Shown here piece by piece: positions 2,895 to 23,927 of a stretch of 24,390 nt of DNA. A program made the translations under genes and the position numbers. The DNA is from a virus. Under the pieces are notes generated by a model. It worked only from the letters and a program-made list of their open reading frames with translations, had not been told where the DNA came from and did not search any database. Location of the stretch: positions 1 to 24,390 of the IMG/VR virus record IMGVR_UViG_3300032053_000497; one strand, written 5' to 3'. Numbering within the stretch: position 1 is the first letter of the stretch; each line of letters opens with the position of its first letter.

Positions 2895-3302
2895 TTAAAA
2901 TCCAAAAGAATCTATCCATACATTATTGTCATCTGCCCAATCATATAACATATTCATTACATAATCTACTTCATCAGGTTCTGGATATGAATCTAACATA
3001 TTAAATTCATCAATAATTTCTTGAAATTTGTCTACTTCATAATCTTCCATAAAATCTTGAAGATATTCTATTTTTGAAGTTAAAATATCAATCATACCCA
3101 TTCTAAATTCTTCAGTATCACCGCCTTCATCATCGTCTTCATCGTCATCGCCATTATAAGCTTTCATTAATGGCGCAATATTTATAGTGAATTTCCATTT
3201 ACCACCATTTTTTGTAAATCCTTTTTTAACGAGTTCTGCTTCTTCTTCAGGAGTTCTTGGAGATAAATGCTTTATACCTTCGTTAACAAGTTTTGCTCTC
3301 AT
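2895..3302 (-). CDS. IKHL-module protein with acidic payload (135 aa)
   Basis: It carries a shortened module, MRAKLVNEGIKHLSPRT, followed by PEEEAEL. Compared with the full module the P-E-H-I segment is absent and the small residue after E is G. The payload holds a highly acidic tract (NGDDDEDDDEGGD, about residues 51-63) and acidic helices to the end, giving a strongly negative protein that could mimic DNA or bind a basic partner. This is inference from charge only. Upstream lie a hairpin terminator (3333-3351) and an AATATATAAATA element 9 nt before the ATG, so it probably starts its own transcript. Confidence 0.8.
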   Translation of the reverse strand: MRAKLVNEGIKHLSPRTPEEEAELVKKGFTKNGGKWKFTINIAPLMKAYNGDDDEDDDEGGDTEEFRMGMIDILTSKIEYLQDFMEDYEVDKFQEIIDEFNMLDSYPEPDEVDYVMNMLYDWADDNNVWIDSFGF

Positions 3303-4085: not shown

Positions 4086-4095
4086 TTATATATTC
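4086..4095 (-). promoter_or_regulatory. Candidate promoter element overlapping a stop codon
   Basis: The minus strand reads GATGAATATATAAAACAAAAC. The TAA inside the element is the stop codon of the 4086-4529 gene, so the last codons (M-N-I-stop) and the promoter-like motif share bases. It lies 19 nt before the 4066 start. Confidence 0.4.
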
Positions 4096-4529
4096 ATCGT
4101 CTTTCGTACAAAGTTACCGATTTTGATATCTTCATATAATTTTAGCGCTGCTATAATAAAAGATCCATATTTTTCTAAATAAGGGATCCATTGTTCTGTA
4201 CAATTTATTCTATCTTCTAATAGATCCATAGTAGCATGTTCTTTAAATCGACTTGGGCCTCCACTAGGAAAATATGCATGTAATACAATTCGATTGTTAT
4301 CAGAAAAAGTAATTACAAGATAAGTAGAATCATTAGTAACTCTTCCAGTAACAGAAGTTGTTTTTATTTCATGTTTTTCATTATAGTTTTTAAGTTTTTT
4401 ATATTCATTATCCCATTGACCTTCCATATCATCTGTATATTCTACATCGAACTCAAGAGCTCGCGCTATTTCATTTTCTGATCTTGGAGAAAGATGCTTA
4501 ATTGCTTCAGATATAAATTTAGCTTTCAT
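4086..4529 (-). CDS. IKHL-module protein, unknown payload (147 aa)
   Basis: The module is a short form, MKAKFISEAIKHLSPRS, then ENEIARAL. The E-A junction is kept (FISE-A). The payload appears alpha/beta: a Tyr/Asp-rich segment (residues 28-45), a strand-rich middle (TTSVTGRVTNDSTYLVITFS, residues 57-76), a Gly/Pro loop (FPSGGPS), then helices. No family is recognised. The ATG is preceded within 3 nt by an AATATATAA element on the same strand. It is the first gene transcribed leftward from the divergent region 4530-4681. Confidence 0.8.
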   Translation of the reverse strand: MKAKFISEAIKHLSPRSENEIARALEFDVEYTDDMEGQWDNEYKKLKNYNEKHEIKTTSVTGRVTNDSTYLVITFSDNNRIVLHAYFPSGGPSRFKEHATMDLLEDRINCTEQWIPYLEKYGSFIIAALKLYEDIKIGNFVRKTMNI

Positions 4530-5583: not shown

Positions 5584-7029
5584 TTATTTTTCAAATAATG
5601 GTGACATTAATAAATCATCTTTATCTTTATATAATTTAGGTTTTGAAATTGGTCTTTTAGGACCAGGTGTCATAGGACCTCTAGGTTTTTTAGTTCCACC
5701 ACATCCACAACCTTCATTACACTCATCATCATTCTTAGAATTTTCAAAATCATCTTGATATTTTTTAGGTATTTCACTTCTTCCGTGATAAATAACGTTT
5801 CTCATATATTCATGATGACTTTTTTCTTCTTCATCATCTTCTTCTTCATTTTCATCATCTTCTTTATCTTTTACTTCATATATTTTAGAAAGTTTTGGCA
5901 TCATATAATCTTTATCAAAAGATTCTTTAGTCAATTTGTTTTTCCAATAATTCATAACCATATTTGTTAATTCATCTATAGATTTTTCTGTATTAATAGA
6001 AATCCAAGTTCCAGCAGATCTTTTAAATAGTGTATCTACAATACCTCTAAGCCATTTATTGTCTTCAACATCACCAAAATTATTCATATTTAACCAATTT
6101 CTCATATTATTTACAGTTTTAAATTTAATTTGTTTTTGAAATTTAAAAAGTATTTTCCCTATCATTTGTTTGATTTCTTCATGAGTTAACGGATGATCAT
6201 ATGTTTTTGTAATACGTTCATTAACAGATACTACATTTTCTTCTATTTTTTCTATATCTTCTTCTGATTCTATTCTATTTTTAAGTCCATTAACTTCTGG
6301 ATCATTAGGATTTGGAGAATTATGACCCATTAATACATCATCTATAGATATTGTTTCATCTAAAGATTCAAATGTTCTAATTGGTCTTTTCTTTTTTCTT
6401 TTAATAGTTTTATCTCTTTTAAAGTTAAGTAATATTTCATTTTTTGATCTTGGTTTAAGATGTTTAATGGCTTCATTAATAACATCTTCCCATATATCTA
6501 ATTCTGATTCTGGAAGATACTTACTAATTTTATCAAGTAATTCATAATCTTTGTTATCTATTGCTTGATTAACTATTTTTTCAATTTCACTTTTTCTCAT
6601 CTTTGAATAATCTTTATTTTGTGTATATTTTGGTTCTTCTTTTGTTTCGTATTCATCTATTTTTGCTAAAGCTTCTTGTACAACGTCTGTCATACCTGCA
6701 ACTCTCCAATTATTATCTATTTCAATTTCATCTTCTTCTCTATAATCTTTAAATCCATATTGATCTTCACCTAATAGAGTACTAAGGTACCATTGACCAG
6801 GTGTAAGCTGCCACATGCCACTTTTAGTCTTCATAAAGATTTTAAGTATCCATTCATCTTCTCTTTCAATATTATTTCCTTCTTTTCTTTTTGTTAAAAT
6901 TCCTCTATATAATCTATCTGCAAGTATATCGATAGGACGATTATTAAGTAAAATAGCATCATATGTACTTTTATTTATAAGCTTAATTACTTCATCATCT
7001 TCAGATTCATATAAACGTGTTTTTACCAT
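5584..7029 (-). CDS. Large acidic protein with an internal IKHL module (481 aa)
   Basis: The N-terminus is MVKTRLYESEDD, not the usual leader. A typical module lies inside at about residues 184-198 (DVINEAIKHLKPRSKNEI). The N-terminal 180 residues look like a folded domain with Trp-containing strands. After the module come a basic stretch (KRDKTIKRKKKRP), a middle helical domain with WLNMNNFGDVEDNKWLRG, and an acidic linker near residues 390-405 (DKEDDENEEEDDEEE). It ends in a Cys-Gly cluster (CNEGCGCGG) and a Pro/Lys-rich tail. If the module is a processing tag, the protein would be cut between two domains. No family is recognised. A GAATATATAAATA element lies 8 nt before the start. Confidence 0.8.
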   Translation of the reverse strand: MVKTRLYESEDDEVIKLINKSTYDAILLNNRPIDILADRLYRGILTKRKEGNNIEREDEWILKIFMKTKSGMWQLTPGQWYLSTLLGEDQYGFKDYREEDEIEIDNNWRVAGMTDVVQEALAKIDEYETKEEPKYTQNKDYSKMRKSEIEKIVNQAIDNKDYELLDKISKYLPESELDIWEDVINEAIKHLKPRSKNEILLNFKRDKTIKRKKKRPIRTFESLDETISIDDVLMGHNSPNPNDPEVNGLKNRIESEEDIEKIEENVVSVNERITKTYDHPLTHEEIKQMIGKILFKFQKQIKFKTVNNMRNWLNMNNFGDVEDNKWLRGIVDTLFKRSAGTWISINTEKSIDELTNMVMNYWKNKLTKESFDKDYMMPKLSKIYEVKDKEDDENEEEDDEEEKSHHEYMRNVIYHGRSEIPKKYQDDFENSKNDDECNEGCGCGGTKKPRGPMTPGPKRPISKPKLYKDKDDLLMSPLFEK

Positions 7030-7037
7030 TGTTTTAT

Positions 7038-7047
7038 TTATATATTC
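7038..7047 (-). promoter_or_regulatory. Candidate promoter element overlapping a stop codon
   Basis: The minus strand reads TGAATATATAAATAAAACA. Its TGA is the stop of the ankyrin gene (7046-7048), and the ATG at 7029 follows the core by 8 nt. It contains TATAAATA. Confidence 0.45.
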
Positions 7048-7537
7048 ATCTAAAAGATTTCTTAAATCTCTTTGATCTTACATATTTTTCATAAGCTTGC
7101 GCAAATCTCTTATCTTTAAATAATAAACGTAAGATTTGTGGAATTGGTTTAGTTTCAGGATGATTTTTTACTGTATCTTTTATAAGTTCTAATTCATTAT
7201 CTGCTGGATTAGCTCTACCATCATTTAACAAAAGTTTAACAATATCTATATGCTTGTAATATACAGCAGATCTTAGTGAAACACTTTCTAAATCTGCTGG
7301 ATTAACTCTATGAAATGTAAGCAAATATTTAACAATATTATAATGCCCTCCTTGACATGCCCAAAGTAATGGATGATTATTACTTATAGCTGGATCTGCT
7401 CCTTTTTCTATTGCTTCTTTAGCCATCCACAATAATCCTTCTTCACACGCAAATTTAAGCATTTCATAAGATGTCATATTTTTGGAAGATGCACGTAATT
7501 CTTCTTTAGATTTTGGAGATAAATGTTTTATACTCAT
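7046..7537 (-). CDS. Ankyrin-repeat protein with minimal IKHL module (163 aa)
   Basis: I take ATG 7535-7537, giving MSIKHLSPKSKEELRAS. The longer frame adds 15 residues (MNQLKEKIHILNIFI) unlike any other module gene. Only the IKHLSPKS core of the module is kept. Residues about 25-135 hold three or four ankyrin-type repeats, visible as NNHPLLWACQGGHYNIVKYLL and SLRSAVYYKHIDIVKLLLND, each with the A-x-x-x-G/K-H-x-x-I-V-x-x-L-L pattern. The C-terminus is basic (RSKRFKKSFR). Ankyrin repeats bind proteins, so this payload probably acts on a host or virion partner. Downstream, its stop lies within the next promoter-like element. Confidence 0.8.
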   Translation of the reverse strand: MSIKHLSPKSKEELRASSKNMTSYEMLKFACEEGLLWMAKEAIEKGADPAISNNHPLLWACQGGHYNIVKYLLTFHRVNPADLESVSLRSAVYYKHIDIVKLLLNDGRANPADNELELIKDTVKNHPETKPIPQILRLLFKDKRFAQAYEKYVRSKRFKKSFR

Positions 7538-7568
7538 TATAAATATATTTAATATATGTATCTTTTCT

Positions 7569-7856
7569 TTAAGTTGATTCATTTAAATGATTATAATACA
7601 TACTATACCATTTTGTATTTTTAATCATATTTATAAATCGTGAATTTCTATTTTTTAATTCTTTATAGATAGCTGCTTCTTCTGTAAAATCAACATTCCA
7701 TCCTGCCCAATCATCAAATAATTCTTTATCATTTTTAGATAAAAATGATTTTCTTAATTGTTTTAGCCTTTTATTAATAATAATAGAAATTTCTTTTTGA
7801 GATCTCGGAGTAAGATGTTTTATAGCTTCATTAATATGTTCAGGTACTAAGTTCAC
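7569..7856 (-). CDS. IKHL-module protein, GTG start (95 aa)
   Basis: It begins with the full module (MNLVPEHINEAIKHLTPRS, then QKEISII), read from GTG at 7854-7856. No nearby ATG would keep the module. The first 42 nt match the 17425 gene on the other strand at 40 positions by my comparison. The payload is short and helical: a basic segment (NKRLKQLRKSFLSKNDK) then acidic/aromatic residues (DDWAGWNVDFTEEAAIYKEL). The function is unknown. An AAATATATAA element lies 15 nt upstream. Confidence 0.8.
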   Translation of the reverse strand: MNLVPEHINEAIKHLTPRSQKEISIIINKRLKQLRKSFLSKNDKELFDDWAGWNVDFTEEAAIYKELKNRNSRFINMIKNTKWYSMYYNHLNEST

Positions 7857-13308: not shown

Positions 13309-13857
13309 ATTCCAAATTTTGAAAATTATTTCAGATGAACAATTTTGATAATTTGTTTTAAAATTATTAAAATCATTATTTTCTATATCTTGTCTTAAAA
13401 TTGAAGCTGATATTGGTTTTCCTTCAAATTTATCTGTTCTATTTTTATATACTAAAGGACTACTATTTATATATAATTCAATTAATTTAACACCTTTTGA
13501 TAGTTTATGAATTTTATAATAATCGATAAGTCTTTTAATTCGTTTATAATCATTTTCCTTTGATGAAGAAGCTAATACATATTTTCCAGGTTTAGCAGAT
13601 TCTATAAATTTACATGCTGCACCAATAGGAGATACATCTTCTACTTTTTCTATAGAAACTTTAGGGTTATTAATTAACTGAAATATAACTTGATGCGATA
13701 TAGCTTCTGTTATAATTCCTCTAGTACTTGGACTAACAAATACTTTGACTTCTTTAACATCAGGATTATCAACATATCTTTGAATTAAATCTATATGTCC
13801 TGCATGCATAACTTTAAATGACCCAGAAAAAAGAACAATCACGTTTTTATTTTTCAT
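13294..13857 (-). CDS. Cytidylyltransferase-fold nucleotidyltransferase (187 aa)
   Basis: The signature G-S-F-K-V-M-H-A-G-H at residues 12-21 matches the (G/S)xFxxxHxGH motif of the HxGH nucleotidyltransferase family, which transfers NMP to a phosphate-containing substrate. Near the C-terminus ISASILRQD resembles the I-S-S-T-x-x-R motif. Length and pattern fit nicotinamide-mononucleotide adenylyltransferase or pantetheine-phosphate adenylyltransferase types, and phage NAD-salvage enzymes of this fold are known. The substrate cannot be decided from sequence alone. Its ATG overlaps the 3' end of a decayed endonuclease fragment by 11 nt, so that remnant runs directly into it. Confidence 0.75.
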   Translation of the reverse strand: MKNKNVIVLFSGSFKVMHAGHIDLIQRYVDNPDVKEVKVFVSPSTRGIITEAISHQVIFQLINNPKVSIEKVEDVSPIGAACKFIESAKPGKYVLASSSKENDYKRIKRLIDYYKIHKLSKGVKLIELYINSSPLVYKNRTDKFEGKPISASILRQDIENNDFNNFKTNYQNCSSEIIFKIWNLIRK

Positions 13858-14152
13858 TGAATATTTTTATTAAATTATTAAAATTATTATCAAGTATCAT
13901 ATAATATATAAAATTTTGTTTTTTACATTCCTTTTCTTTTAAATAACATATTTTTTCATGTAATTTTAAAAAATATGACGATTTAATCTCAAAAATTATG
14001 TTAGTATTTTTTATTTTATAATCAATATAATATAAATGGTTTTTTCCATCATCATTAATATATTTTATAGAAGGGCCTCTTTCTATCATATCGAGTTTAT
14101 TTATTTTTTCTAAATATTTAAGAAAATTTAATTCATATTCATTGTAGACATA
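13847..14152 (-). pseudogene. Remnant of a KYG-repeat homing endonuclease (nuclease domain only)
   Basis: An 80-residue frame from ATG 14089 matches the C-terminal nuclease domain of the three plus-strand endonucleases. RGPSIKY, YYIDYKI (for YPDFYIP), FEIKSSYFLK and YYMILDNNF correspond in order. In the same frame the match continues upstream of that ATG to 14152 (NEYELNFLKYLEKI, like SYELDFLEKYY), where a TAA (14153-14155) and then a terminator cut it off. The zinc fingers and KYG repeats are absent. The D and E-x-K catalytic residues survive. It is most likely a deletion remnant; a truncated protein could still be made. Confidence 0.8.
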
Positions 14153-14205: not shown

Positions 14206-15006
14206 TTAAACTTTTGTTTTATATTTATTGAAAAGTTTTTCAAATCCTTTAGGAATTTCACTATAACTATCTTCATCAAATAAATCTCTTGGAAGATTAA
14301 TTTTGTAAACTGCTCCATGCTCATTTGGATATTGAACTTTAGCTCTTATTTTCATCATGCCGACATTTTGTAAATCTGTAATATTAAATTTGTCTATTTT
14401 TATAATTTTTTCAACTCCTAATGCATCTTCATAATATTTTTTTCCATTTACTGTAACAGCTTTTTTATCTTCAAATCCTATAAATACATAAGTATTATAT
14501 TCTGCGTCATATTCTACAGCTTCTGCATCTCTAGTTAGTTTAGTTGATGTAATTTTAGCCTGTTTAATATCATGATCCCAATCTCTTCTAGAATGAAATC
14601 CACGTTTAGTATCATTGTAGATTATTTTTATATTTTCAATAAGTTCTAAAATTTCATCTTTTGATAAGCCGTCATTATACGCATCTTCTACTACATCACT
14701 AATTTTTTCTCTTCCTTTTTTTATACGGACTATTAATCTATCTTCAGGACTTAAATTTGATAATTCCTTTTTTATTTCATCAGTAGCATATAAATGTTGA
14801 TATGCATACATGTAGTCTATTTTTTCATCTTTAGGTAAATTAGCTTTTTCAATTTCAGCTTTCATCTCTTCTTTAGAAAATCCATATCTTTGCATATCTG
14901 CCAATCTTTCATTAAATGACAAATTATCTAAAGATCGTTTCATCTCTTCTTTAGTTTTAGGACTAAGATGTTTTATAGCTTCATTAACAGATTCAGGTAC
15001 GAGCAT
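14206..15006 (-). CDS. IKHL-module protein, large unknown payload (266 aa)
   Basis: It begins MLVPESVNEAIKHLSPKT, then KEEMKRSL. The first 130 residues after the module are charged helices with repeated short units (NERLADMQRYGFSKEEMKAE, PKDEKIDYMYAYQHLYA, LSPEDRLIVRI, GLSKDEILELI), suggesting a small helical-repeat domain. The C-terminal 110 residues are strand-rich (EAVEYDAEYNTYVFIGFEDK, KVQYPNEHGAVYKINLPRDL). No family is recognised. It lies 3 nt after the endolysin gene, and its ATG is preceded by AATATATAAAATAAACA, so it may be both read through from the endolysin and started separately. Confidence 0.8.
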   Translation of the reverse strand: MLVPESVNEAIKHLSPKTKEEMKRSLDNLSFNERLADMQRYGFSKEEMKAEIEKANLPKDEKIDYMYAYQHLYATDEIKKELSNLSPEDRLIVRIKKGREKISDVVEDAYNDGLSKDEILELIENIKIIYNDTKRGFHSRRDWDHDIKQAKITSTKLTRDAEAVEYDAEYNTYVFIGFEDKKAVTVNGKKYYEDALGVEKIIKIDKFNITDLQNVGMMKIRAKVQYPNEHGAVYKINLPRDLFDEDSYSEIPKGFEKLFNKYKTKV

Positions 15007-16057: not shown

Positions 16058-16133
16058 AGTTTTAATTTTTTAGTTTGATATATCTATCTTTATTATAATG
16101 AAATATGAACTATGTTTTTAATATTTAACAAAA

Positions 16134-16152
16134 TTTTAATTGGAATATATAA
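16134..16152 (+). promoter_or_regulatory. Candidate promoter element for the plus-strand module array
   Basis: TTTTAATTGGAATATATAA followed by ATATATG. The core ends 4 nt before the chosen ATG at 16157. It also contains TATAAATA. Confidence 0.45.
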
Positions 16153-16156
16153 ATAT

Positions 16157-16726
16157 ATGAAACTAGTATCCGAACATATTAACGAAACTATTAAACATCT
16201 TAGTCCTAAAACTAATGATGAGCATTTTAATGCTCTTAAACAAACAGTAGAAGAATTTAGTAAAAGAGAAGATAATGAGTTTTCAGTAGATTTATTTAAT
16301 TTTTTTAATGATCCAGATGAAACATCGTTTAATATATGGGAAATTGTAAATGCGATGTGGCAAGAATTAGATGTTAAAACTAGAAAAAATCTAATATGGC
16401 ATTTAATAATGGAGTCATCTACATTTAATAGAAGTTTTCATAATATGATAAAAGATCATACTGATCAAATATATGATGAATTTTTATCTGAGTCTATAAA
16501 ACATTTATCTCCAAAATCAGAAGCAGATTTACAATCTGCTTATACAATGGCTATTAAAGAAATAGATGAAATTTATATACGAGATGATAAATTAAGTTAT
16601 CTTGAAAAATATTTAGACAAAGATTGGGAAAAAGTTTATTGGGATGTAATAATGTGGATGAGCGATAATGAATTTGATGAATTTTGTCATTATGTTATTA
16701 TGCATCCTGAAGAATATAAAGAATAA
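16157..16726 (+). CDS. Double IKHL-module protein (189 aa)
   Basis: I chose ATG 16157 because it puts MKLVSEHINETIKHLSPKT at residue 1. The longer frame from 16112 adds 15 hydrophobic residues across the promoter-like element. A second module lies inside at about residues 112-126 (EFLSESIKHLSPKSEADL), so the protein is two module-payload units fused head to tail. The first payload is about 90 residues (FSVDLFNFFNDPDETSFNIW) and the second about 60 (YLDKDWEKVYWDVIMWMSDN). Both are acidic and aromatic, with resemblance to the 16728 payload in Tyr/Asp spacing. It leads a plus-strand array of four module genes. Confidence 0.8.
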   Translation: MKLVSEHINETIKHLSPKTNDEHFNALKQTVEEFSKREDNEFSVDLFNFFNDPDETSFNIWEIVNAMWQELDVKTRKNLIWHLIMESSTFNRSFHNMIKDHTDQIYDEFLSESIKHLSPKSEADLQSAYTMAIKEIDEIYIRDDKLSYLEKYLDKDWEKVYWDVIMWMSDNEFDEFCHYVIMHPEEYKE

Positions 16727-16727
16727 T

Positions 16728-17033
16728 ATGAATTTAGTGCCTGAACATATCGATGAAGCTATAAAGCATCTTGCTGGTTTTTCAGAAGAAGAAGCAGAAG
16801 CTAATTTTCTAAAAGACATGGAAAAATTCAAAATAGATCCAAAAAATCCATATGCAGCTCACCAGTATATAGATAAAATAGGGTATCATGTTTTTGGTGG
16901 TGTATATGAAGAAAATGCTCAATTAACTTACAATGATTACAGAGAAATCGTAGGATTTATTCTTTATAACTTAGATAAAGAAGCTCTTAAAAAAGCGACA
17001 ATGCAAACTATAAATGATTATTTATTTGGATGA
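16728..17033 (+). CDS. IKHL-module protein, small payload (101 aa)
   Basis: ATG 16728, one nt after the previous stop, gives MNLVPEHIDEAIKHLAGFS and then EEEAEANF. An upstream in-frame ATG at 16668 lies inside the preceding gene and would bury the module, so I reject it. The payload is helical/acidic with NPYAAHQYIDKIGYHVFGGV and ends ATMQTINDYLFG. The stop overlaps the next start (ATGA). The function is unknown. Confidence 0.8.
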   Translation: MNLVPEHIDEAIKHLAGFSEEEAEANFLKDMEKFKIDPKNPYAAHQYIDKIGYHVFGGVYEENAQLTYNDYREIVGFILYNLDKEALKKATMQTINDYLFG

Positions 17034-17428
17034 ACTTAGTACCTGAAAATATCAATGAAGCTGTAAAACATCTTGGTGGAAGATCTGAAGAAGAAATAGA
17101 ACAAATAATGTCAGAGATGCCAGCAGATGAAAGATTTAATTATGCTATTGATCATAAAATAAAATTAACAGGTAATACAATAAACAAAATATTAATAGAT
17201 TTGCTACATGACAGATATGTAAAAACTAATGGTCAATATAATTGGCATTTCAGTTGGAAAGAAGGCGGATATAATGAAGTATGGGCTGCAACAGAAGATG
17301 AAGCTTATAAAAAGGCTTCACAAATATGTTCTTTACATCCTATTAAATCGTCTTTAAGAAAAAGAAAAACAGATTATAAAGATCTTATAGAAAAAATCAT
17401 AGATTATAAAGAAATGCGCGGATTATGA
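17030..17428 (+). CDS. IKHL-module protein, small payload (132 aa)
   Basis: It opens MNLVPENINEAVKHLGGRS, then EEEIEQIM. A helical stretch with ADERFNYAIDHKIKLTGNTI is followed by a Trp-rich strand region (YNWHFSWKEGGYNEVWAATE) and a basic end (KSSLRKRKTDYKDLIEKI). The phrase E-R-F-N-Y-A-I-D-H-K-I-K-L-T recalls L-P-F-A-N-E-H-K-L-P-M-T of the 1028-1558 payload, a possible distant payload relationship. It overlaps both neighbours by 4 nt (ATGA). No family is recognised. Confidence 0.8.
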   Translation: MNLVPENINEAVKHLGGRSEEEIEQIMSEMPADERFNYAIDHKIKLTGNTINKILIDLLHDRYVKTNGQYNWHFSWKEGGYNEVWAATEDEAYKKASQICSLHPIKSSLRKRKTDYKDLIEKIIDYKEMRGL

Positions 17429-17796
17429 ACTTAGTACCTGAACATATCAATGAAGCTATAAAACATATGCCAGGAATGTCAGTAGACGATTTCTGGAAAT
17501 CTCTCACAAAATTAAATGGAAAAGAAATAGCCGAAGCGTTAAGAGAACGTTTAGATATGTGGCCAGAAGAAGTTTTAAATAGTTTATTAAGTTTTGCGCC
17601 TGAAGATAAAATGCCTTTTAGAGATATTCTTGATATTATCGAAGATTTAAGATTTGCAACAATGAAAGATAGACTACGCAATATACAAAGACAAATTAGC
17701 GTAATAGAATTATACGCAAGAATATTCGATTCTTTAGAAGCAGAAGAAAAAGATAATGCATTAGAATTATTAAGAATGCATACTGATCAGGAATAA
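17425..17796 (+). CDS. IKHL-module protein, last of the plus array (123 aa)
   Basis: It starts MNLVPEHINEAIKHMPGMS, then VDDFWKSL. The M-P-G form of the core is shared with the 21526 gene (KHMPGRP). The payload is helical throughout, with Leu/Arg heptad-like spacing (IEDLRFATMKDRLRNIQRQI) and an acidic C-terminus (LEAEEKDNALELL), possibly a coiled coil. Its ATG overlaps the preceding stop (ATGA). The 5' 42 nt are almost identical to those of the 7856 gene on the other strand. Confidence 0.8.
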   Translation: MNLVPEHINEAIKHMPGMSVDDFWKSLTKLNGKEIAEALRERLDMWPEEVLNSLLSFAPEDKMPFRDILDIIEDLRFATMKDRLRNIQRQISVIELYARIFDSLEAEEKDNALELLRMHTDQE

Positions 17797-17881: not shown

Positions 17882-18586
17882 TTAAATTTGTGTTAAATTT
17901 TCTTTGACTCTATTTAGTTTGTTTTGATGTTGTTTTAAGTTACCTGCATCGAAAAATTTTCCACAATGATCGCATTTATATTTTTCTCTTTTTAATGCAG
18001 CAGTTTTACAATTATCTTTAGTAGATTGTGATCGTTTAGTACCTAAAATAGTATTTCGTATTTTGTTATTTTGCGTTTGTTTTCTTTTATCTGCTTCTTC
18101 TTTTCCATATTTTTCAATCCAGATATTATATGAGGAATTATTATACATTCCATTTTTTATTCCTGCTGAATTTTCTTTATTAGCTTTTCCTATTTTTAAT
18201 TTAGTTTCATTAGACAACGGTTTATTCCAATTAGGATGATCTTTTCCTACGCATTTTCCTTTTCTATTAATTGATATTTTTATTAGGCTTTCTTTAGCAA
18301 AACAACCTTTTACATTATGACCACCTTTAGGACTTATATTATATCCGTTGGGATTTAACGTATTATATTTTTTAATATATTTTTCTTGAGCATTGAATGC
18401 TTCATTTTTTGAAGAAAATTGTTCAAGAATTTTCTTTTTAAAATTAATGTTTCCGTATTTTTTGATAGCTTTAACTATCAATAATCCACTTCCTAAATAA
18501 TTGTCATCTAAATTATCTGTAGAATGATCTCCGATATATTGTTTTCCATTAACTAAATTAGTGGTTAAATAAACAGTATGTATCAT
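17882..18586 (-). CDS. GIY-YIG homing endonuclease
   Basis: The N-terminal catalytic domain shows V-Y-L at residues 5-7 and Y-I-G at 17-19 (VYLTTNLVNGKQYIGDHS), the GIY-YIG hallmark. The middle contains NUMOD-like DNA-binding segments (SLIKISINRKGKCVGKDHPN, ETKLKIGKANKENSAGIKNG, YNIWIEKYGKEEADKR). It ends in a zinc-finger-like KCDHCGKFFDAGNLKQHQ (CxxC...H). Such free-standing enzymes, like T4 Seg proteins, cut a homologous locus to spread their gene. The ATG overlaps the stop of the RuvC-like gene (ATGA), so it is translated from the same message. It converges on the plus-strand module array. Confidence 0.9.
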   Translation of the reverse strand: MIHTVYLTTNLVNGKQYIGDHSTDNLDDNYLGSGLLIVKAIKKYGNINFKKKILEQFSSKNEAFNAQEKYIKKYNTLNPNGYNISPKGGHNVKGCFAKESLIKISINRKGKCVGKDHPNWNKPLSNETKLKIGKANKENSAGIKNGMYNNSSYNIWIEKYGKEEADKRKQTQNNKIRNTILGTKRSQSTKDNCKTAALKREKYKCDHCGKFFDAGNLKQHQNKLNRVKENLTQI

Positions 18587-19332: not shown

Positions 19333-20265
19333 ATGAAAAAGTTTAGAAAAAATAAACAAAATCTTTTTGTATGCGAAGAATGTGAAAGAACATTTAAAGC
19401 ATATCAAGGATTACGAACGCATATAAGACATTCTCATAAAAATTTATCACAAAAAAATTATTATGATAAACATCTAAAAGAAGTTAGCGATGATAAATGT
19501 AAAATATGCAATAATGAAACTCTTTTTATTGGATTATATGATGGCTATAAAAATTGTTGTAGTAAAGAGTGTTCTAATAAATACAGATTTATAAAATCGA
19601 AAGAACAAGTATATAAATTATATAATGTTGAAAATCAATTTCAAAGAACTGAAATTAAAAATAAATGTAAACAAGCGCATTTACGAATTTTGGGGGTAGA
19701 ATATCCAAGACAATCACAAGAGATAATTGATAAAACAAAAAGAATTTGTTTAGAAAAATACGGTGATGAAAATTATACTAATACTGAAAAAAGGAAAGAA
19801 ACTTGTTTAGAAAAATATGGATATGATACAGTATTAAGAGATTCAGTTAAAATGAGAGCAGCTATAATGAAAAAATACGGTGTTGAGAATGTTATGCATT
19901 ATCCTGAAATATTTCAAAAACAACAAATGTCAGCATTTAAAGCTAAAACATATAAAAATACAACTATTTATTATAGAGGTTCTTATGAATTAGATTTTCT
20001 TGAAAAATACTATAATAAGTATTCAGATATTAAAAATGGACCTTCTATAAAATATAAATATAAATTAAAAAATAGAATATACCACACTGATTTTTATATC
20101 CCTAGTAAAAATTTAATAGTAGAAATTAAAAGCAGTTATTATTATAATAAATATAAAGAAATGTGTATCACAAAAGAAACAGCAGTTATTAAAAGTGGAT
20201 ATAAATATCTTTTAATATTAGATAAAAATTATGTTAACGACCAAGTGCGATGCCTATCGCTGTAG
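19333..20265 (+). CDS. KYG-repeat PD-(D/E)xK-type homing endonuclease, copy 1 (310 aa)
   Basis: The domains in order are: a C2H2 finger (C14, C17, H30, H33/H35); a treble-clef-like zinc site (C56, C59, C75, C80); and about five 20-23-residue repeats with a K-Y-G-V-E/D core (about residues 91-200). A nuclease domain follows (about 212-300): GSYELDFLEKYY, GPSIKY, HTDFYIP with D253, and VEIKSS with E264 and K266, a D...E-x-K pattern. It is most likely a free-standing homing endonuclease. It is antisense to its neighbours and its last 32 nt overlap the 3' end of the minus gene at 20234. The exact family name is uncertain. Confidence 0.75.
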   Translation: MKKFRKNKQNLFVCEECERTFKAYQGLRTHIRHSHKNLSQKNYYDKHLKEVSDDKCKICNNETLFIGLYDGYKNCCSKECSNKYRFIKSKEQVYKLYNVENQFQRTEIKNKCKQAHLRILGVEYPRQSQEIIDKTKRICLEKYGDENYTNTEKRKETCLEKYGYDTVLRDSVKMRAAIMKKYGVENVMHYPEIFQKQQMSAFKAKTYKNTTIYYRGSYELDFLEKYYNKYSDIKNGPSIKYKYKLKNRIYHTDFYIPSKNLIVEIKSSYYYNKYKEMCITKETAVIKSGYKYLLILDKNYVNDQVRCLSL

Positions 20266-20615: not shown

Positions 20616-21539
20616 ATGAAAAAATTTAAACTTATTAATTCACATTTTGTATGTGAAGAATGCAGAGAAATGTTCTTATATAAAAAAACTTTAAGTTTAC
20701 ATCTCAACAAAAAACATAATTCAAAGGAATATTTTGATAAATGGATAAAAGAAGAAAACGATGATAAATGCAAAATATGTAATAATAAAACTCAGTTTTT
20801 AAATATAGGTAAAGGATATAAAAATTGTTGTTGTGAAAGTTGTTCAAAAAAATATAATTATCAGCAAACTGAAAAAACATGTTTATCTAAATATGGAGTA
20901 AAAAATGCTAATGTTTTAATTACTGTTAAAGAAAAAATTAAAAAAACTAATTTAAAAAAATACGGAAATGCATCACCGGCTCAAAATAATAAAGTTAAAG
21001 AAAAAATTAAAAAAACATGTTTAGAAAGATATGGTGTTGATCATCCGTTTAAATCTGATTATTGCAAAACAAGAAGAATTGAGGGAACTATGAATAAATA
21101 TGGCGTTATTAATATATCACAATTAAAAGAAACTCAAAGAAAAATAAAAAATACTCATTTAAAAAAATATGGCGTAGAACATCCTATGCAAAATACACAA
21201 TATTTTGAAAAAACTCAACGTAATAATTTTCTAGCAAAAAAATATAAAAATACAAATATTTATTATAGAGGATCATATGAATTAGATTTTCTTGAAAAAT
21301 ATTATAATAAATTCATTGATATTAAAAATGCTTCTTCAATAAAATATATGCTTAATAATAAAGAACATATATATTTTCCAGATTTTTACATTCCATCATT
21401 AAATATTATTATTGAAATAAAATCGTCATATTATCTTAAAAAATATAAAGATAAATGTATAGCGAAACAAATAGCAACTGAAACGCAAGGTTTTAAATAT
21501 ATTTTAATTATTGATAAAAATTATTCTACATTTTTTTAG
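20616..21539 (+). CDS. KYG-repeat PD-(D/E)xK-type homing endonuclease, copy 2 (307 aa)
   Basis: The architecture matches copy 1: a finger HFVCEECREMFLYKK (C13, C16, H29, H34), a second zinc site (C52, C55, C71-C73, C76), five KYG repeats (about residues 86-202), and a nuclease domain with YYRGSYELDFLEKYY, FPDFYIP (D256) and IIEIKSS (E267, K269). The repeat sequences differ from copy 1 while the nuclease end is nearly the same. The last 14 nt overlap the 3' end of the minus module gene at 21526. It starts 37 nt from the divergent glycine-zipper gene. Probable free-standing homing endonuclease. Confidence 0.75.
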   Translation: MKKFKLINSHFVCEECREMFLYKKTLSLHLNKKHNSKEYFDKWIKEENDDKCKICNNKTQFLNIGKGYKNCCCESCSKKYNYQQTEKTCLSKYGVKNANVLITVKEKIKKTNLKKYGNASPAQNNKVKEKIKKTCLERYGVDHPFKSDYCKTRRIEGTMNKYGVINISQLKETQRKIKNTHLKKYGVEHPMQNTQYFEKTQRNNFLAKKYKNTNIYYRGSYELDFLEKYYNKFIDIKNASSIKYMLNNKEHIYFPDFYIPSLNIIIEIKSSYYLKKYKDKCIAKQIATETQGFKYILIIDKNYSTFF

Positions 21540-22011
21540 ATCGTTTTTTCTTTGGATCATATTCTCTTACTATATTATCTACTGGCGCTTGTGGAATTTT
21601 TTCATCATACATTGTTACTGAAAAACTGTAATCTGAATTTCCAGGAAGCTGAATATTTACCCTATGTTTTAATAGTAATTCGGCAGTTTCAGGTTTATTA
21701 TTAAAAGTTAACATAAAACTTGAATGCTGTTCAAAATAAAAAACAAAATTTGTTTCTCTAGCGCTCCAAGGATTTTTATTTATTTGTTGTATTCTATAAT
21801 TTTGAGGAGAAGTTCCTAAAATATCTTCCAAAATAATTTTAATATATGGACGTTCTTGAATAAGCTTATGATATAGATCAAACATCATATGTTCATCATT
21901 AACATTATATTTCCATGAATCTTGTTTTAAAAAACCCCAGATTTCTTCATCAGGTCTTCCTGGCATATGCTTTATAGCTTCATCAATATGTTCAGGCACT
22001 AGTTTAGGCAT
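21526..22011 (-). CDS. IKHL-module protein, unknown payload (161 aa)
   Basis: It starts MPKLVPEHIDEAIKHMPGRP, then DEEIWGFL, the M-P-G variant of the module. A helical region (NVNDEHMMFDLYHKLIQERP) leads to a strand-rich C-terminal half (ETNFVFYFEQHSSFMLTFNN, VNIQLPGNSDYSFSVTMYDE) and a basic end (YDPKKKRSKKM). The beta-rich end with aromatic strands resembles a sandwich fold, but no family is identified. The ATG lies 8 nt inside the 3' end of the small gene at 22004. The stop overlaps endonuclease copy 2. Confidence 0.8.
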   Translation of the reverse strand: MPKLVPEHIDEAIKHMPGRPDEEIWGFLKQDSWKYNVNDEHMMFDLYHKLIQERPYIKIILEDILGTSPQNYRIQQINKNPWSARETNFVFYFEQHSSFMLTFNNKPETAELLLKHRVNIQLPGNSDYSFSVTMYDEKIPQAPVDNIVREYDPKKKRSKKM

Positions 22012-22183
22012 ATCTATCTAATAATATTTTTATAGTATTCCAAGAAATTAATTCTCTATTATCTCCAAGTATACCCTCTTTTCCGGCTTTCACTTTTTCA
22101 TTATTTATTTTTAATACATCAAAATGATGACCACCCATACTAATTGATTCGTCTAATTTTTCTTTTATAGTTTTTGCTCTCAT
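22004..22183 (-). CDS. Small unknown protein, perhaps a diverged module (59 aa)
   Basis: ATG 22181-22183 gives MRAKTIKEKLDESISMGGHH, ending NTIKILLDRYA at TAA 22004-22006. It sits 5 nt after the tail-tube-like stop and overlaps the next ATG by 8 nt, which supports a coupled real gene. The start MRAK and the E-x-I pattern recall the MRAKLVNEGIKHL form of the module at 3302, but the IKHL core is missing, so a relationship is only suggested. No domain is recognised. Confidence 0.55.
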   Translation of the reverse strand: MRAKTIKEKLDESISMGGHHFDVLKINNEKVKAGKEGILGDNRELISWNTIKILLDRYA

Positions 22184-22188
22184 AATTT

Positions 22189-22767
22189 TTATACTGATTT
22201 TCCTGCTGTATAATTTTCATCGTCTAATCTTCTTGTTATCTTAAATCTATTATAAACCATGTTCATTGTAAAAGTATTGAATTCTGCAGCAGTTGTAGCG
22301 TAACTTAAATTAAATTGAGACATTCCTGTTGGAACTATTTTTTCAAATTCAAAAACTAACAATTCAAAACCATGATGATCTAGAAAACTTATATACATTG
22401 ATGGCCAAAACGGATCCTTCAGCGCGTACTTCTGATATAGCTCGATTTGTTCGAATAACATCCAATAGGTGATAAAACCTTCCATTAGTTTGAATGTAAC
22501 GGTGAGGTTCTTGTCCAATATAGGTTCGAGTTCTTTACCACCACGATATTTGATATTAAACATAACCTGTGGCTGATTAACAGGCGCTAAAGACATTTCA
22601 GGAAACGAAACATTTTGTACAGAAGCGTTAAGAAAGTCTTCTAATGTTTGATACTGAAGTTTTAATCTTTTAACAATAGGCGTCCATCTCTGTTCAATTT
22701 CCGGATAGAAAAAATTCTTAGGGAACCAGACAGTATATTGTGATAACTTCGAATTAAGGATAGACAT
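22189..22767 (-). CDS. Tail-tube-like structural protein (192 aa)
   Basis: The length is near T4 gp19 (163). The middle and C-terminus follow the tail-tube beta pattern: NVSFPEMSLAPVNQPQVMFN, NLTVTFKLMEGFITYWMLFE, and the closing FEFEKIVPTGMSQFNLSYAT followed by FNTFTMNMVYNRFKI. In gp19 a ...P...L...F-x-V-T-L-A-L-D-Y strand ends the protein. This is by pattern, not identity; a gp54-type or other tube-fold protein is equally possible. The gene is visibly less AT-rich than its neighbours, as expected for a strongly expressed structural gene. It lacks the IKHL module. Confidence 0.5.
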   Translation of the reverse strand: MSILNSKLSQYTVWFPKNFFYPEIEQRWTPIVKRLKLQYQTLEDFLNASVQNVSFPEMSLAPVNQPQVMFNIKYRGGKELEPILDKNLTVTFKLMEGFITYWMLFEQIELYQKYALKDPFWPSMYISFLDHHGFELLVFEFEKIVPTGMSQFNLSYATTAAEFNTFTMNMVYNRFKITRRLDDENYTAGKSV

Positions 22768-22773
22768 ATGATT

Positions 22774-22814
22774 TTTTTTTAAGAATATATAATAAAAATA
22801 TAATTTATATATTT
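22774..22814. promoter_or_regulatory. Divergent inverted promoter pair (47-nt intergenic)
   Basis: Plus strand TTTTTTTAAGAATATATAA (core 22783-22792) and minus strand AAATATATAAA (22804-22814) face outward between ATGs at 22767 (minus) and 22815 (plus). This is the third endonuclease head junction with the same arrangement. Confidence 0.4.
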
Positions 22815-23927
22815 ATGAAAAAACCGGCTAAAAATCAAGAAAACAAATTTATTTGTGAAGAATGTCATCATTTATATAAAAGATTTTGTGATTTATCTAA
22901 ACATATAGGTTTAAAACATAATAGTAAAATATATTATGATAAAAATTTAAAAGAAGATAATGAAGAAATATGTCCTATTTGTGGAAATGAAAATCTATAT
23001 TTAGATAGATGGGATAGAGGATATAAAAAAACATGTTCAAAATCATGTGAATACATATTAGCAAAACAAACTTCTAAAAAAACTTGTTTAAAAAGATATG
23101 GAAATGAACATTATAATAATACTTTTCAAATTCAAAAAACGTGTTTAGAAAGATATGGAAATGTTTGTGCTGCACAATCAGAAAAAAATCAAGTAATAAT
23201 CAAACAGAATTTAATTAAAAAATATGGAGTAGATAATCCTCTTAAATCTGAAGAAATTCAAAAAAAATGTAGAAAAACTATGAAAGAAAAATACGGTGTT
23301 GAATATTGTATGCAATCACCAGAAATAGTAGAAAAAATTAAAAAAACTAATATAGAGAGATATGGTGTTGAATATCCCGTTCAAAATAGTGAAATTCATG
23401 ATAAAATAAAAAAATCAACCAAAAAATCTACTGGATTTGAATATAATTTTCAAAATAAAGAATTAATGGAAAATTCTTTAATGAAAAAATATGGAGTTAC
23501 TAATTCTTTTCAGTCTCCTGCTGTACAAAAACTGTGTCGTAAAGTAATGAAAGAAAAATATGGAGTAGAATATTCAATGCAAAATATAGATATATTTGAA
23601 AAGGGACAAAAAACACGATTTTTAAGAAAACAATTTAAAGATACAGATATATGGTATCAGGGCTCTTATGAATTAGATTTTTTAGAAAAATTTTATCAAA
23701 AATATAATATTCAACGCGGTCCTACTATTAAATATATCTTAGATGATAAACAAAAAGTCTATTATCCTGATTTTTATATTCCATCTTTAAATCTTATAAT
23801 TGAATGTAAAAATAAATATTTATTAAAAAAATATAAAATTCTTTGTAATCTTAAGAAAAAAGCAGCCATAGCTGCTGGATTTAATTATATTATGATAGTT
23901 GATAAAAATTATAGTTTCTTAAGCTGA
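22815..23927 (+). CDS. KYG-repeat PD-(D/E)xK-type homing endonuclease, copy 3 (370 aa)
   Basis: It has the same layout as copies 1 and 2: a finger FICEECHHLYKRFCDLSKHI (C14, C17, H30, H35), a second zinc site (C53, C56, C74, C78), and a nuclease domain (about 280-365) with YQGSYELDFLEKFY, RGPTIKY, YPDFYIP (D319) and IIECKNK (E330, K332). The repeat block is longer: eight units (about residues 88-266), one degenerate (STKKSTGFEYNFQN). That explains the extra 60 residues. The last 19 nt overlap the 3' end of the minus gene at 23909. Probable free-standing homing endonuclease. Confidence 0.75.
   Translation: MKKPAKNQENKFICEECHHLYKRFCDLSKHIGLKHNSKIYYDKNLKEDNEEICPICGNENLYLDRWDRGYKKTCSKSCEYILAKQTSKKTCLKRYGNEHYNNTFQIQKTCLERYGNVCAAQSEKNQVIIKQNLIKKYGVDNPLKSEEIQKKCRKTMKEKYGVEYCMQSPEIVEKIKKTNIERYGVEYPVQNSEIHDKIKKSTKKSTGFEYNFQNKELMENSLMKKYGVTNSFQSPAVQKLCRKVMKEKYGVEYSMQNIDIFEKGQKTRFLRKQFKDTDIWYQGSYELDFLEKFYQKYNIQRGPTIKYILDDKQKVYYPDFYIPSLNLIIECKNKYLLKKYKILCNLKKKAAIAAGFNYIMIVDKNYSFLS

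Follow-up and report, generated by a model that had tools for sequence, protein, structure and literature searches.

KYG units of putative phage homing endonucleases change in number in place, and their arrays are a candidate DNA-recognition module

The stretch of DNA analysed here, referred to as the window, comprises 24,390 bases of a virus record and has a low G+C content of 25.6%. Three plus-strand genes, A, B and C, lie among genes that are mostly on the minus strand, and each encodes a protein resembling a homing endonuclease with tandem units built on a KYG core. Copy A (19333..20265, +) is an open reading frame of 310 residues with five units, copy B (20616..21539, +) has 307 residues and five units of 23 residues each, and copy C (22815..23927, +) has 370 residues and eight units. 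All three match the Pfam family DUF7487 (PF24308), with E-values of 5.7e-28, 1.2e-35 and 4.9e-46 and scores of 98.8, 123.9 and 157.8 bits, all over the curated cut-off of 27 bits, and the PHROG families that match them are annotated as homing endonuclease or endonuclease. By these profile matches A, B and C belong to the homing endonuclease family, a known kind of protein. The C-terminal remnant of a fourth copy, consisting of the nuclease part only, lies at 13847..14089 on the minus strand (DUF7487 E-value 3.3e-5 at profile positions 164-218; also 7.2e-6).

An earlier note on this DNA had placed the repeats between zinc fingers and a nuclease, and the same architecture was found in A, B and C. 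In copy B, an N-terminal zinc-binding region with a C2H2-like finger and then a zinc ribbon (20616..20861, +), recognized from invariant Cys/His columns, is followed by the unit array with a 17-residue joint (20862..21221, +), located with a position-specific matrix, and by a PD-(D/E)XK nuclease domain (21222..21536, +) recognized from the motif PDFYIP...EIK and a match to Tn7_TnsA-like_N (E-value 0.0017). The corresponding parts of copy C are a zinc-binding region at 22815..23066 (+), assigned by Cys/His alignment and predicted with a pLDDT of about 95-98, a unit array at spacings of 19, 23, 23, 23, 23, 20 and 23 residues with its 17-residue joint at 23067..23609 (+), which was found with the matrix and also modelled separately, and a PD-(D/E)XK nuclease domain of TnsA/Vsr-like fold at 23610..23924 (+), assigned by fold match and invariant active-site residues. 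The array of copy A, also delimited with the matrix, occupies 19591..19929 (+), with five units of 23, 23, 19, 20 and 23 residues. Residues C14, C17, H30, H35, C53, C56, C74 and C78 (C numbering) are invariant in 8/8 aligned homologues, and the zf-C2H2 profile gives weak matches that are clearest for copy A. The interval first proposed for the repeat feature, 20874-23616, extends from the first unit of B to just past the array of C; it leaves copy A outside and takes in the unrelated minus-strand genes at 21526-22011 and 22189-22767.

The units were identified and counted by means of a position-specific matrix whose training set excluded the window proteins. The arrays of A, B and C scored 96.9, 143.6 and 224.6, whereas shuffled sequences scored at most 13.6 (2000 shuffles each), and the resulting counts of five, five and eight agree with those given before. 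Most units are 23 residues long, as had been described, but a minority class of 19-20 residues (units 3-4 of A, units 1 and 6 of C) had been missed. Because two units of A are degenerate (KLYNV and RILGV), a strict search for YG finds only three units in that copy. The two ends of the array had been called constant, and this is borne out by 73 homologues, in which the array starts with a unit whose G is close to residue 95 and its last unit is placed 17 residues before the nuclease; in a larger set, the 17-residue gap is present in 90/106 proteins with a DUF7487 nuclease. The arrays carry a net charge per residue of +0.098, compared to +0.015 for the open reading frames of the window.

AlphaFold2 predicted protein C with a pLDDT of 91.8 and a pTM of 0.42, and the array of C alone with a pLDDT of 89.8 and a pTM of 0.51. 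Such values, high for local and low for global confidence, agree with an extended chain whose units have no fixed geometry to each other without DNA, and they do not favour a single non-DNA-binding fold, the outcome named in advance as counting against a DNA reader. In the model each unit passes from a loop through a three-residue turn into a helix of some 15 residues that ends at the G. The helix-turn unit postulated earlier is thus supported as far as the predicted turn and helix and the unit-wise conserved letters are concerned, and DNA recognition by such units is what we infer from them. By sequence, no solved relatives of A, B or C were found, and the array of C alone gave neither a Foldseek match in the PDB at E <= 0.001 nor a VIA match with Z >= 2, which is not evidence for a new fold. 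NUMOD3 is a motif with known DNA contacts; its profile has no match in A, B or C, and in an hhalign comparison of the KYG unit with NUMOD3 the helices align in the expected register at a probability of only 1.5%. The nuclease domain of C matches the folds of TnsA (Z 9.1), Vsr (Z 7.7) and the catalytic domain of I-Bth0305I (Z 7.6), and E286, D319, E330 and K332 (C numbering) are invariant in an alignment of 49 sequences. Judged by fold and conserved residues, it is a predicted PD-(D/E)XK domain with an intact D-ExK site.

A 405-kb phage contig, IMGVR_UViG_3300027899_000001 (hereafter G001), is syntenic with the window. At the equivalent loci it carries orthologues of A (61.6% identity, with the spacing 23, 23, 19, 20 kept) and of C (54% identity, eight units). 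G001 lacks copy B, the genes that would flank it being directly adjacent there, and no copy of the 13847-14089 remnant is found at its syntenic place either. Copy B therefore shows the presence and absence at one site expected of a free-standing homing endonuclease, as far as a comparison of genomes can indicate. G001 contains 16 DUF7487 match segments in at least a dozen places and also 17 NUMOD3 matches, together a very heavy load of homing endonucleases. A GIY-YIG-like homing endonuclease gene in the window (17882-18586, -), with weak matches to NUMOD3 and to a C-terminal C2H2 finger, adjoins a RuvC-like gene and is absent from the syntenic place in G001. A short AT-rich leader, for example TATAATTTATATATTT, stands just before the ATG of B, C and homologues at the C locus; it may be a promoter carried along when the gene moves.

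The number of units, which had been noted to differ between the copies, also changes within one locus: in six phages the C locus carries proteins with 8, 8, 5, 5, 5 and 3 units. In the three-unit protein (L051) the zinc-finger region has 73-75% identity to those of the eight-unit proteins, but units 1-3 share 55-62% identity with the five-unit proteins and only 35-38% with the eight-unit ones, the composition of a natural array mosaic as judged from these identities. In another lineage, a protein with eight units, L198, was compared to L210 and L209 with three; their flanks are 93-94% identical in DNA and their nucleases 96-98% identical in protein, and about 300 bases covering units 3-7 have been deleted in frame in L210/L209 relative to L198. 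In L009, neighbouring units are 95% identical in DNA, which marks a recent tandem duplication. Over the family, adjacent units are no more alike than distant ones (similarity 0.35 vs 0.34), so the arrays are mostly old and not homogenised. As far as the sequences and the literature searched indicate, such in-place change of unit number is a new finding here. Since alleles with 3, 5 and 8 units occupy the C locus, the site where a gene inserts does not dictate how many units it has; the precise target may nonetheless differ among alleles of the same locus. One locus can also hold unrelated arrays, which makes the locus a poor proxy for the target. The idea that the array predicts the insertion locus better than the protein ends was dropped: over all 5565 pairs the AUC was 0.80 for the array, 0.84 for the zinc-finger region and 0.85 for the nuclease, and earlier values of 0.78 for the array against about 0.60 for the ends came from a biased filter on different-locus pairs.

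Matched units of orthologous arrays stay in register. Shuffling the units reproduced the observed agreement in 0/5000 trials for C and its G001 orthologue, 0/5000 for the set at site C and 28/5000 for the A pair, and this retention of individual unit identity between orthologues appears to be new as well. To compare single positions, these were numbered from the G of the unit (position 0) in 16 orthologue groups, in which the locus was confirmed for 37/52 orthologue pairs. Over the family, few positions vary more than -9, -5, +3, +4, +5 and +7 (identity 0.11-0.23), yet between matched orthologous units these reach an identity of about 65-74%. Positions -11, -7, -3, +8 and +9 are variable too, but their matched-unit identity is only about 39-44%; position -2 is intermediate. 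The sharpest signal is at -5, with an identity of 0.70 in matched and 0.09 in shifted units, and the matched-minus-shifted difference is positive in 14/16 orthologue groups. The positions were chosen after viewing the data, and as a check the position profile gave a rank correlation of 0.72 between the largest group and the rest and a mean of 0.51 between random halves. On the predicted helix, -13/-12, -9 and -5 are four residues apart and lie on one face beside the conserved K-10 and T-6. Polar residues (N, S, H, R, K, T) are found at +3 and +7 and account for much of -9/-5, and +4 and +5 are often hydrophobic. The pattern at -9, -5, +3 to +5 and +7 is as expected of target-reading residues, and unit-to-unit packing could partly account for it. 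A fixed set of variable positions conserved unit by unit is, on the alignments at hand, a third new finding.

Scans of IMG/VR revealed many relatives of A, B and C. At least two KYG units occur in 155 distinct proteins, with up to 9 units and a spacing of 23 residues in 470 cases and 19 residues in 99; proteins with the DUF7487 nuclease have 2-9 units. By profile, 43/155 proteins are without a nuclease of the DUF7487 type, and some of these are fragments. Besides this nuclease, at least four other kinds of nuclease are linked to the array, including Vsr/Hef-type, HNH, DUF559-like and other PD-(D/E)XK domains. Because it is joined to several unrelated nuclease types, the array would, judging by architecture, behave as a nuclease-independent recognition module. 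Structure matches to the array model reach Klosneuvirus, Marseillevirus and an iridovirus, and a scan of cellular genomes yielded at least one relative, on a contig labelled Lokiarchaeota. In one subgroup (L198, L200-L206 and L208), the KYG/DUF7487 nuclease is followed by an extra C-terminal domain of about 250 residues, which seems to resemble the C-terminal region of Hef-type proteins.

Several described systems share features with these proteins. DUF7487, whose profile spans KYG units and nuclease and which A, B and C match far above its cut-off, carries no description beyond that of a family with unknown function; because the profile mixes array and nuclease, it also matches proteins with other nucleases. 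Hef-like enzymes, such as F-LimVIII of phage LIMEstone1, those of the Acj9 and FL44 genes between nrdA and nrdB, and Hef of phage U5, are likewise encoded by free-standing genes in phage genomes and have a zinc ribbon and KYG units N-terminal to the nuclease. F-LimVIII, which has been classed as Hef-like (PMC3296691), combines six units with a zinc ribbon and a Vsr-like domain, whereas the Hef-like forms between nrdA and nrdB differ from A, B and C in having only one or two units; Hef of U5 cleaves nrdB, according to a review (PMC2988022). The Hef-like nuclease is Vsr-like and is accompanied by an extra C-terminal domain, unlike A, B and C, which lack the Vsr-like EDxHD active site and have D...ExK where F-LimVIII has EFNGLYWHS. 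I-Bth0305I (EDxHD, PDB 3r3p) resembles the nuclease of C in fold (rmsd 2.8 over 79 residues), but its active-site motif differs and the likeness covers the catalytic domain, the DNA-binding region being absent from 3r3p; in this enzyme the cleavage domain is tethered to a long DNA-binding region and the dimer has a target of nearly 60 bp (PMC3943268). The T5orf172 homing endonucleases of ICP1 and others contain repeated zinc-finger domains; their repeats recombine, and gp174 is an allele with an in-frame deletion (PMC10448857). Recognition repeats are thus present in both groups, but theirs are zinc-finger domains on a T5orf172 nuclease and not 23-residue units. Families that read DNA with stackable units are few, and they are important for gene targeting. 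Like KYG arrays, TAL effectors and zinc-finger arrays are built of similar units that vary in number and, within each unit, at only a few residues. TAL repeats are about 34 residues long with two helices, whereas the KYG unit has 23 residues and one long helix, and no base rule is known for it. In our literature search no paper contained DUF7487, none combined KYG, homing endonuclease, phage and repeats, and none gave a KYG recognition rule; the original Hef and I-Bth0305I papers lay outside the search, and a prior description is possible there.

Taken together, these data make it probable that a T4-like jumbo phage encodes A, B and C as free-standing homing endonucleases. The sequences themselves show the domain order, the number of units and its changes in place, the identity kept by single units and the pattern of positions; contact with DNA, reading by segments, cleavage and homing are inferred. 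The zinc-finger region would anchor the protein and the KYG chain would lie along the target DNA, its units contacting successive segments; in each unit a short turn spanning +1 to +8 is combined with a helix of some 15 residues. The C-terminal PD-(D/E)XK domain would cut a set distance away from the last unit, and repair of the cut would copy the gene into alleles that lack it. The best candidates for reading the target are -9 and -5 on the helix and +3 to +5 and +7 in the turn; the conserved K(-10), T(-6), Y(-1) and G(0) may serve as scaffold or touch the backbone. The protein would be retargeted when tandem duplication adds units, in-frame deletion removes them or enzymes exchange them. We consider this explanation as a whole, homing endonucleases that read their target segment by segment through the KYG chain, to be somewhat favoured. 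Within it, the array is likely a DNA-recognition module, and putative segment-by-segment reading with a footprint proportional to unit number is plausible. A broader proposal is more tentative and, in our judgement, has the odds somewhat against it: that KYG units form a new modular system in which -9, -5, +3 and +7 of each 23-residue (or 19-residue) unit read one short DNA segment of fixed length, with a footprint linear over 2-9 units, and which plugs into unrelated phage nucleases and, by structure matches, serves giant viruses too.

The array could instead be a spacer or ruler between the zinc-finger site and the cut, with units that only bind the DNA backbone or hold length, read no sequence and set the distance by their number. 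Such a role would suit the constant joint to the nuclease and the change of unit number in place, and the linker of I-TevI has been described as a 'protein ruler' (PMC2988022). However, a ruler predicts no unit-specific letters, yet the identity at -5 is 70% in matched against 9% in shifted units and the register of units is conserved between orthologues, which leaves this reading unlikely. Somewhat less probable still is that the units bind DNA loosely and unspecifically, that zinc fingers and cut-site preference do the targeting, and that the position pattern reflects packing and shared descent. The units are lysine-rich and positively charged, array similarity predicts the locus no better than the ends do, and part of the pattern positions are hydrophobic, all of which would agree with loose binding; the polar residues at +3, +7 and much of -9/-5, conserved unit by unit, argue against it, as does the AlphaFold2 model of separate small units instead of a packed domain. 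A role in protein-protein contact (dimerisation or recruitment) and not in DNA contact seems very improbable. Helical repeat proteins often bind proteins, and the closest Foldseek rows in the PDB are TPR domains, but at E >= 1.9 and a probability of 0.06 no TPR-like match is significant; moreover, the array is positively charged and, in the sequences examined, KYG units occur only beside zinc ribbons and nuclease domains.

With a small set of candidate letter positions and natural alleles of 3, 5 and 8 units at one locus, it would be directly testable whether one unit corresponds to one DNA segment, and the duplication, deletion and swapping of units would explain how homing endonucleases change targets. 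If the array is only a spacer, the analysis still assigns a function to a Pfam family that had none.

Apart from these genes, about 13 otherwise different proteins of the window start with a shared N-terminal peptide, M(K/N)LV(P/S)EHINEAIKHLSPRS. Their genes lie on the minus strand at 1028-1564, 1558-1821, 1818-2168, 2168-2881, 2895-3302, 4086-4529, 7569-7856, 14206-15006 and 21526-22011, and on the plus strand at 16112-16726, 16668-17033, 17030-17428 and 17425-17796. The tag resembles the capsid-targeting sequences of T4, which are cleaved after E, and the tagged proteins may be internal head proteins. Many comparable proteins of G001 carry a different tag, M(K/N)(L/I)VREYINEKFKEESDPI; one tag per phage lineage, if true, would be notable. 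The motif IKHL(S/K)P(R/K)S also occurs internally, at residue 184 of a 481-residue protein (5584-7029, -), and slightly offset in an ankyrin-like protein (7046-7582, -), which would fit a fusion of the tag or a shift of start sites.
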